Assembly (NCBI GenBank): GCA_002011815.1
Contig: MTOV01000015.1
Coordinates: 65,405 to 129,404 of the forward strand
From: Nitrospirae bacterium JdFR-86
GTDB taxonomy: Bacteria > Nitrospirota > Thermodesulfovibrionia > Thermodesulfovibrionales > JdFR-86
DNA length: 64,000 bases
Direction: 5' to 3'
A program made the translations under genes and the position numbers. Every line of letters begins with the position of its first letter. Within the stretch, counting starts at the first letter, position 1. Positions 5,279-61,674 of the stretch are shown in pieces. The notes under the pieces are model-generated. The model saw only the letters and a list, made by a program, of their open reading frames with translations. It was not told the origin of the DNA and did not search any database.

Positions 5279-6487
5279 TTACCTCGACTTTTTTAAGTAT
5301 TCACGCACGAAGATGTAGCCTGCCAGTGCAGAAAATATCATCTGGAGTCCAAAGAAGGTAAAGAATAGGGCGGTGATTACTTTTCTCGTCTCGAAGTAAT
5401 ATCCAAATCCCTGCTTTACCCAAGAAATAACTGAATCTACACTTATACCTGCTCCGATGATGAATGAGACGACTCCGGCACATAACAGATATTTAAGGGT
5501 GCGAAGATTCAGTGCTTTTACCAGCCGGTCTTCTTTTTTGAATTTATGTCTGATTGCGTAAAGGTCTACGATAATACCGTTTATCATCAATTGAAAGCCT
5601 ATTATAAAGGACATGACTCCGAATATAAAGGAGTGTATATCGAGCCTGACGCCGAAAGCCTCAAAAGGTTTTCTGAATGTCAGCGCACTTATTACCATGC
5701 CGAGCAACAGGAGCACAGCACCGGGCAGGAAGAAGGTGACCAGAGGGTTGTAAAGTATAAGCAGTCCGAGTATGGTTTTAATAATGACGAAGCCGTCTTT
5801 AAACGGTTTTAGCTTAGATACGCCGGCTCTTTCATTGTAGTTAATTCCGAGTTCTCTTATGCTTGAGCCCATACGGGATGCCTTGACGACTATTTCCGCT
5901 TCAACTGCAAAATCCCTTGATTCTATATCGAGTTTTTCTATCAGTTCTCTTTTAAGTCCGTAAAGACCTGACAGCGGGTCTGTGCCTTTAAAACCGCTCA
6001 GCAGTCTGATAAAGGAAGAGATTAGTTTGTTTCCGAGGAGGTTCAACAGCCGTATGTTTTTGCTGTCTCTGCGGGTAAGCACCATGTCCACGGTGTCGAG
6101 TTCTCTGCTTATCCTTGGTATCTCTTCAGCCGGATAGGTGTTGTCAGCATCCATGAAGATTATCTTTCTTCCTTTCGCATTGCGGATGCCTGTGATTATG
6201 GCTGCTCCTTTTCCCATGTTCTTGCGGTGGCTGATGACCTTGCAGGGAAAGCTGCGGGCTATAGATGCTGTATTGTCTGTAGAGCCGTCATCCACGACCA
6301 GAATCTCGAATCTTTCCTTGGCTTCCGGCAGGACTTTCAGAATGCTTTGCAGGGTCAGGGGCAGACCTTCTTCTTCGTTATATGCAGGCAGTATGATTGA
6401 CGTATCTACTGTCTCGTCATTCATGACCGGACTGTTGTATTCTACATGATTAAGAGTCTTAAATGAAGTTGACCTCTTTGATTGCAC
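5279..6487 (-). CDS. Glycosyltransferase family 2 (dolichol-phosphate-sugar synthase-like) with C-terminal TM region
   Basis: TSIILPAYNEEEGLPLTLQSIL...ILVVDDGSTDNTASIA...FMDADNTYPAEEIPRI. True start may be the internal ATG at MNDETVD. Confidence 0.88.
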   Translation of the reverse strand: MQSKRSTSFKTLNHVEYNSPVMNDETVDTSIILPAYNEEEGLPLTLQSILKVLPEAKERFEILVVDDGSTDNTASIARSFPCKVISHRKNMGKGAAIITGIRNAKGRKIIFMDADNTYPAEEIPRISRELDTVDMVLTRRDSKNIRLLNLLGNKLISSFIRLLSGFKGTDPLSGLYGLKRELIEKLDIESRDFAVEAEIVVKASRMGSSIRELGINYNERAGVSKLKPFKDGFVIIKTILGLLILYNPLVTFFLPGAVLLLLGMVISALTFRKPFEAFGVRLDIHSFIFGVMSFIIGFQLMINGIIVDLYAIRHKFKKEDRLVKALNLRTLKYLLCAGVVSFIIGAGISVDSVISWVKQGFGYYFETRKVITALFFTFFGLQMIFSALAGYIFVREYLKKSR

Positions 6488-59978: not shown

Positions 59979-60060
59979 GAAGCACAGTCTGCTTTTCAAT
60001 TCAAAGTCTTCCTCTTTATTTTTTCTGTGATAAAATAAAATATATAAAAAGGAGCGTTAT

Positions 60061-61674
60061 ATAGCGGCGATTTACGGCAACATATCAGGCCTTAAGGGCA
60101 GTGAGCTGAATTCTCTCCAGAGGATATACCGGAGAAGAGTCCCGCCGCAGAGTATTTTCACTCCTGAGCTTGCAAAATACCTTTCAACTGTTTCCGGACA
60201 GATAAACCGGCAGATAGGCGTGCTTATCGCAAGAGACGGCATTGTGACTCATGTGATAGTGGGTGATGCAAAAGGCATATTTATTCCATCGCTTGAGGAT
60301 TATCCACTGGGCAGAAAGGCATTAAGAGGATTGAGACTTGTCCATACACATCTTAGAAACGAGGAACTGACTCAGGATGACCTTACAGACCTTGCCCTCC
60401 TCAGACTTGACCTTGTTGCTGCAATAGGAGTAAAGGACGGCGGCATAGGAAAAATTTATCTTGCTCATCTTACGCCTCAGGGCGTGCAAAAAACAGAATA
60501 TTATCCGGAGTTTGATTTCGCTGACTTCATACACTCCCTTGAAGAAGAGATGCAGCGCAGAAGACTCTTTGACCAGACTGACCCAAGGGAAAGGGCTATT
60601 CTTATAAGCGTTTCAAAGAGTCCGAAATACGAGCAGGAAGACTCTATTGAGGAACTCAAAGAACTTGCTGAATCAAGCGATGTGCTCGTTCTGGATACTG
60701 TAATTCAAAGGCCAAAGGAGATTAACCCCCGGTATCTCATGGGAGAGGGAAAGCTTAAGGAGGTCATCATAAACGCCCTGAACAGGGGGGCGACGATTCT
60801 TATATTCGACCAGGACCTTACTCCGTCTCAGATAAAATCCATAAGTGAGTTGACTGAGCTTAAAGTAATAGACCGTTCCCAGCTTATACTGGATATATTT
60901 GCAAGGCGCGCTCACAGCCGGGACGGAAAGGTTCAGGTGGAACTGGCACAGCTTAAATACAGACTGCCAAGGCTTTCAGGCAGGGGGACTGCAATGTCAA
61001 GGCTGATGGGAGGCATAGGCGGAAGAGGACCAGGTGAGATGAAACTTGAGGTTGACAGAAGACGCGTGCGCGACAGAATACACCTGCTTGAAAAACAACT
61101 GAAGTCCCTGAGCGAAGCCAGAAGGCAGAGAAAGAGAAGAAGGGTTCAGAGCGGAATACCTATCGTTTCCATAGTAGGTTATACAAACGCAGGGAAGTCC
61201 ACACTCCTGAATGCCCTGACCAATAGTTCCACTTTTGTCGAAGAAAAAATGTTTGCCACCCTGGACACTGCGACAAGAAGGCTCAGGTTTCCAAGGGAAA
61301 GAGAGATAGTCATTACTGATACAGTCGGTTTTATAAGAGACCTTCCCAAAGACCTTATGGCTGCCTTCAGGGCTACGCTTGAAGAACTTGAGGATGCAGA
61401 CGTGCTCCTTCACCTTGTGGATGCCTCTAATCCAAGATTTCCGCAGCAGATAGCCTCAGTTGAAAAAATACTGGATGAGCTTTCTCTTTCAGAGAAAGAG
61501 CGTATTCTCGTATTTAACAAGATTGACAAACTTAGTGAAGAGGAGGTCAGAAATATCACTGCAAGATACGGTGCTGTAGCCATATCAGCCCTCGACCCTT
61601 CAACATTCGCTCCTCTTTTAAAAGCAATAGAAGAGCGCATCTGGCATGAAAAGTTGGTGGAAACACAGGTATAA
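60061..61674 (+). CDS. hflX: HflX GTPase; conserved N-terminus starts at non-canonical ATA codon (60061)
   Basis: Track ORF starts at 60220 inside the N-domain (IGV-LIARDG). Upstream same frame reads (M)AAIYGNISGLKGSELNSLQRIYRRRVPPQSIFTPELAKYLSTVSGQINRQIGV. SD AAAGGAG 6 nt before ATA. GTPase motifs GYTNAGKSTLLNAL, DTVGFIRDLP. Confidence 0.9.
   Translation: MAAIYGNISGLKGSELNSLQRIYRRRVPPQSIFTPELAKYLSTVSGQINRQIGVLIARDGIVTHVIVGDAKGIFIPSLEDYPLGRKALRGLRLVHTHLRNEELTQDDLTDLALLRLDLVAAIGVKDGGIGKIYLAHLTPQGVQKTEYYPEFDFADFIHSLEEEMQRRRLFDQTDPRERAILISVSKSPKYEQEDSIEELKELAESSDVLVLDTVIQRPKEINPRYLMGEGKLKEVIINALNRGATILIFDQDLTPSQIKSISELTELKVIDRSQLILDIFARRAHSRDGKVQVELAQLKYRLPRLSGRGTAMSRLMGGIGGRGPGEMKLEVDRRRVRDRIHLLEKQLKSLSEARRQRKRRRVQSGIPIVSIVGYTNAGKSTLLNALTNSSTFVEEKMFATLDTATRRLRFPREREIVITDTVGFIRDLPKDLMAAFRATLEELEDADVLLHLVDASNPRFPQQIASVEKILDELSLSEKERILVFNKIDKLSEEEVRNITARYGAVAISALDPSTFAPLLKAIEERIWHEKLVETQV

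Follow-up and report, generated by a model that had tools for sequence, protein, structure and literature searches.

A predicted AUA start of hflX, of a codon class conserved in three phyla and probably controlled by IF3

Selection is known to maintain a non-canonical start codon in only a few bacterial genes, and the published cases that we consulted come, infC apart, from narrower groups than the one considered here. IF3 rejects non-canonical starts and so represses infC and sigR (PMC5472188). In Staphylococcus aureus, where infC itself starts with AUA, AUA and AUU starts yield ~10% of the output of AUG, sometimes depending on the medium (PMC13009471). HflX splits 70S ribosomes, and IF3 is the anti-association factor that prevents their re-association (PMC9067457). 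HflX appears as Escherichia coli cells resume growth from persistence, and in such resuscitating cells it is ~100 times scarcer than other newly made ribosome-associated factors (PMC8407246). Known control of hflX and hflXr comprises heat-shock promoters, WhiB7 and leader attenuation (PMC9067457). Searching the open-access literature, we found no earlier report of a non-canonical hflX start; the nearest was a uORF motif that precedes hflX in Bacillales (PMC8632094), a different form of control. Hereafter, ATH denotes ATA, ATT or ATC, and NTG denotes ATG, GTG or TTG.

We analysed hflX in a 64-kb window (the whole stretch of DNA under study) from Nitrospirae bacterium JdFR-86. The features of the locus are as follows.

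60061..61674, + strand: hflX, GTPase HflX with an extra N-terminal domain, 537 residues (TIGR03156; Pfam GTP-bdg_N, GTP-bdg_M, MMR_HSR1)
60061..60063, + strand: predicted ATA start codon of hflX (ATH column, onset of coding constraint, nearby upstream stops)
60048..60054, + strand: Shine-Dalgarno sequence AAAGGAG of hflX (sequence; Shine-Dalgarno kept in ATH loci)
60031..60033, + strand: TAA, the in-frame stop closing the hflX frame on its 5' side (sequence)
60028..60036, + strand: candidate extended -10 box TG-A-TAAAAT, 5' of hflX (excess of such boxes over shuffles)
60220..60222, + strand: GTG, the first canonical in-frame start codon of hflX (reading of the frame)
60061..60594, + strand: extra N-terminal domain of HflX, residues 1-178, a predicted compact fold (AlphaFold2)

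The initial annotation placed the start of hflX at ATA 60061, following AAAGGAG by a 6-nt spacer, in a frame closed upstream by TAA and offering no canonical start before 60220. Each of these elements was confirmed in the window. The spacer (60055-60060) reads CGTTAT, the frame stays open from 60034 up to the stop codon whose last base is 61674, and no ATG, GTG or TTG occurs in it between TAA 60031-60033 and GTG 60220. Considering all frames, the closest NTG triplets lie 34 nt upstream and 40 nt downstream of the ATA. Following ATA 60061-60063, the hflX frame reads AAIYGNISGLKGSELNSLQRIYRRRVPP. The candidate extended -10 box at 60028-60036 has the sequence TGATAAAAT, and we predict a transcript start near 60043. 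Matching the product to TIGR03156, the HflX equivalog model, gave 449.9 bits over the full model length (curated cut-off, 216.75); together with the Pfam domains GTP-bdg_N, GTP-bdg_M and MMR_HSR1, this match assigns the product by homology to the HflX GTPases. Its ribosome-splitting activity is taken by analogy from E. coli and other HflX proteins (PMC9067457).

An ATA in this position might be an ATG misread during sequencing or assembly, a possibility that nothing favours beyond the rarity of ATA starts. We gathered hflX loci, regardless of their start codon, from the order, a species-level genome collection, other Nitrospirota families, Desulfobacterota and Nitrospinota; most of the named loci come from metagenome assemblies. 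In the first two sets (the order and the species-level collection), 98 aligned loci carry ATA in 45 cases, ATT in 31, ATC in 17 and another codon in 5. Leaving out a few outliers, 87 near relatives remain in these sets, and among them ATG, GTG or TTG was never found at the start column; 83 have ATA, ATT or ATC there. The sister genomes that the initial annotation had proposed to search for ATG at this site thus yielded none, and we give the error reading next to no probability. Across 199 distinct loci from Nitrospirota, Nitrospinota and Desulfobacterota, the aligned codon is ATT in 68, ATA in 56, ATC in 48, NTG in 9 and something else in 18. Of these 199 loci, 172, spread over three phyla, thus have ATH in this position, a frequency that excludes both chance and sequencing error. 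This conservation of ATA, ATT and ATC supports the ATA as the true hflX start. It also recasts the rarity emphasized in the initial annotation: the non-canonical start holds up, not as an oddity of one gene in one genome but as a conserved trait of hflX.

Judging from the alignment, what is conserved is the codon class ATH, not the individual codon. On a FastTree phylogeny of 198 HflX proteins, the 172 ATH codons must have passed between ATA, ATT and ATC 43 times or more, compared with 16 changes between ATH and everything else. We consider it very probable, on these counts, that selection maintains the codon class. The trait can nevertheless be lost, as NTG stands at the column in nine loci and just downstream of it in others; several of the 18 loci with some other codon carry NTG one or two codons further on. 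Six loci without ATH at the column (L177, L195, L197, L220, L225 and L226) have ACG one codon 3' of it, 7-8 nt from the Shine-Dalgarno sequence, and this ACG is a possible non-canonical start. Separately, one contig of a related genome (C20 of G258) contains three hflX-like start regions, at 158-200, 1833-1875 and 5839-5880, each with ATT-CCA after GGAGG; these are possibly tandem hflX copies. Viral contigs yielded no relative. Clostridia and Chloroflexota may have a long HflX as well.

Because ATA, ATT and ATC all encode isoleucine, a conserved internal isoleucine would leave the same codons at the column if translation began elsewhere, whether at an in-frame codon further upstream, at GTG 60220 or through a frameshift from another frame, and a few loci do have an in-frame upstream NTG. 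The surroundings of the codon speak against this. In-frame stops lie within two codons upstream in 26 of the 172 ATH loci and within five codons in 42, and 129 of the 172 have no NTG from the upstream in-frame stop to codon +8. Triplets of the NTG type, counted in any frame from -4 to +6, occur in a single ATH locus, compared with 73.7 expected from a mononucleotide shuffle, a crude measure. Comparing 1454 pairs of related loci, we found that mismatch 5' of the start is ~0.6-0.7 at all three codon positions, dipping only at the Shine-Dalgarno sequence. Coding constraint then sets in sharply: from codon +1 it acts on positions 1 and 2 and is looser at position 3. Codon 0 was left out of this reading, being itself selected as ATH. 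Initiation at any of these other sites is accordingly a very improbable reading.

Other properties of the region are those expected of a genuine start. Of the 172 ATH loci, 168 have a Shine-Dalgarno match 4 nt or longer, in most cases at a distance of 5-8 nt from the codon. Residue 2 is Pro, Ala or Ser in 121 of 172, which suits methionine removal. Within the 70 nt upstream of 92 loci (L009-L115), extended -10 boxes, defined as TG before a TATAAT-like hexamer, number 49, compared with 3.2 in shuffles. Their hexamers cluster ~20-34 nt upstream of the hflX start and so imply short leaders of roughly 12-30 nt. Taken together, we are nearly certain that AUA at 60061 is the hflX start, and we infer that initiation takes place there in vivo.

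The domain at stake in the choice of start lends further weight to AUA 60061. AlphaFold2, supplied with 74 sequences, predicted the 178 residues before the HflX core with a mean pLDDT of 95.8 and a pTM of 0.90. Starting at GTG 60220, which is not conserved among hflX relatives, would drop 53 residues from this confidently predicted domain, deleting predicted strand 4-6 and helices 13-24 and 35-48 and cutting strand 52-57. Gene calls that begin at the first canonical codon shorten the HflX N-terminus in this way, so the extra domain is likely truncated in databases. No Pfam family scored above its cut-off over residues 1-178, and matches to solved HflX structures begin at query residue 169 or later; by these comparisons, the domain is absent from solved HflX structures. 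Foldseek returned weak JAMM/MPN-like matches to AfJAMM, CSN5 and RadC (best E 3.4e-3, TM 0.33). His95-Thr-His97 and Asp107/Asp110 are invariant in the domain. Compared with the JAMM motif E-x(n)-H-S/T-H-x7-S-x2-D, the domain has an invariant H-T-H and an invariant Asp 107, but departs from it in the spacing and at the Ser.

We used other genes of the same genomes as controls. All 14 frr loci start with ATG, as do 13 hpf loci, with TTG in one more, so that the two genes together are canonical in 28 of 28 cases and ATG in 27. Among 137 neighbouring ORFs, 11 have homology 5' of their first NTG; one of these is this genome's own hflX copy (L009), and the remaining ten resemble antisense shadows or fragments. 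Neither frr and hpf nor the neighbouring genes support a general use of ATH starts in these genomes. In E. coli, pcnB, which encodes poly(A) polymerase, starts with AUU and is thus an ATH start outside infC; no pcnB exceeded the curated equivalog cut-off in the 14 genomes searched. The infC gene behaves differently from frr and hpf: 24 loci with a readable N-terminus, one of them (L250) less certain, start by our reading with ATA in 21 cases, ATC in 2, ATT in 1 and NTG in none. The start region of infC in this genome (L259) reads GGAGGTGAAAAC-ATA. By these data, the non-canonical start is a trait of hflX in Nitrospirota, Nitrospinota and Desulfobacterota that is common to infC. The infC loci (L237-L265) show ATA in this genome and most relatives, as opposed to the ATT or ATC usually quoted; the statement in the initial annotation that infC-like genes use ATT/ATC does not hold here, nor for infC of S. 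aureus (PMC13009471). One related genome (G009) has two infC matches over the cut-off, L250 and L265.

These observations suggest a mechanism. The AUA at 60061 would be read by ordinary fMet-tRNA initiation, from a short leader bearing a good Shine-Dalgarno sequence. The codon would drift among AUA, AUU and AUC and only rarely to AUG, GUG or UUG, being kept by selection, and in a few lineages the start would probably be ACG one codon later. IF3 would likely reject initiation complexes on the AUH codons of hflX, keeping HflX output low. Output would rise when IF3 is scarce compared with ribosomes, or through initiation on undissociated 70S ribosomes. Such control would be the one by which IF3 regulates its own gene. 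By analogy with infC and sigR, we consider repression of the hflX AUH start by IF3 reasonably likely. Since HflX takes apart 70S ribosomes that are idle or stalled, and IF3 prevents the subunits from rejoining, a common control would adjust both proteins to the state of the ribosomes. More tentatively, HflX and IF3 could form a translational regulon read through the start codon in Nitrospirota, Nitrospinota and Desulfobacterota, in which AUH senses the IF3:ribosome balance or initiation on unsplit 70S, and both proteins are made together when free subunits are short; we regard this fuller version as conceivable, at somewhat less than even chances. Besides the loci with NTG, Fusobacterium hflX counts against this explanation: it was all that a plasmid search yielded, it is the sole sample outside the three phyla, and it starts with ATG.

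The simplest rival to IF3 control grants that the AUH start is genuine and is conserved, yet treats it as a fixed low-output setting for a protein needed in small amounts, with no sensing of IF3 or ribosomes. It rests on the same sequence evidence and would give the same pattern. The roughly tenfold lower output from AUA and AUU in S. aureus (PMC13009471) and the ~100-fold lower abundance of HflX in resuscitating E. coli (PMC8407246) are both in keeping with it. A weaker Shine-Dalgarno sequence or a GTG or TTG start would, however, serve the same end, yet good Shine-Dalgarno sequences and a codon class rejected by IF3 are kept, and infC, the gene sharing that class, is a regulatory case. We therefore judge a fixed setting unlikely, though far less so than an error or a start elsewhere. 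As a whole, the best explanation is a selected AUA start of hflX that is likely IF3-controlled, a reading we hold to be probable, with repression by IF3 and the feedback logic as its conjectural parts. A second gene of the subunit cycle with the codon class of infC, over three phyla, suggests that start discrimination by IF3 serves as a control signal beyond IF3 itself.

Comparing hflX with described systems places it closest to infC. Like infC of E. coli, Streptomyces and S. aureus (AUU, AUC or AUA; PMC5472188, PMC13009471), it combines the codon class with a good Shine-Dalgarno sequence and wide conservation; in this genome both genes start with ATA and both products act in the ribosome subunit cycle. 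Three marks of a conserved infC-type start are found in hflX: a non-NTG codon without a usable canonical start nearby, a good Shine-Dalgarno sequence and a conserved codon class. Autoregulation by IF3 is experimentally shown for infC, whereas for hflX we infer control by IF3, and HflX, unlike IF3, is not itself the discriminating factor. Streptomyces sigR (GTC; PMC5472188) likewise lies outside infC, and its non-canonical start, which annotation missed, is conserved and follows a strong Shine-Dalgarno sequence, but its codons are GTC or GTT instead of ATH, they are kept within one genus (34 genomes) and the effect of IF3 on it is experimental. The staphylococcal genes ccpN (AUA) and cvfC1 (AUU; PMC13009471) resemble hflX in their extended Shine-Dalgarno sequences and conservation, with output below that of AUG for both. 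They differ in having been found by initiation profiling, in encoding a transcriptional regulator or a small protein, not a ribosome factor, and in being conserved among Staphylococci or, for ccpN, in S. aureus and Bacillus subtilis. HflX of E. coli and other bacteria belongs to the same GTPase family and has the core domains in common with the protein described here, which differs by its extra N-terminal domain of ~170 residues. Together, these comparisons place hflX beside infC, sigR and ccpN among the genes whose non-canonical start is conserved; that of hflX is probably repressed by IF3.
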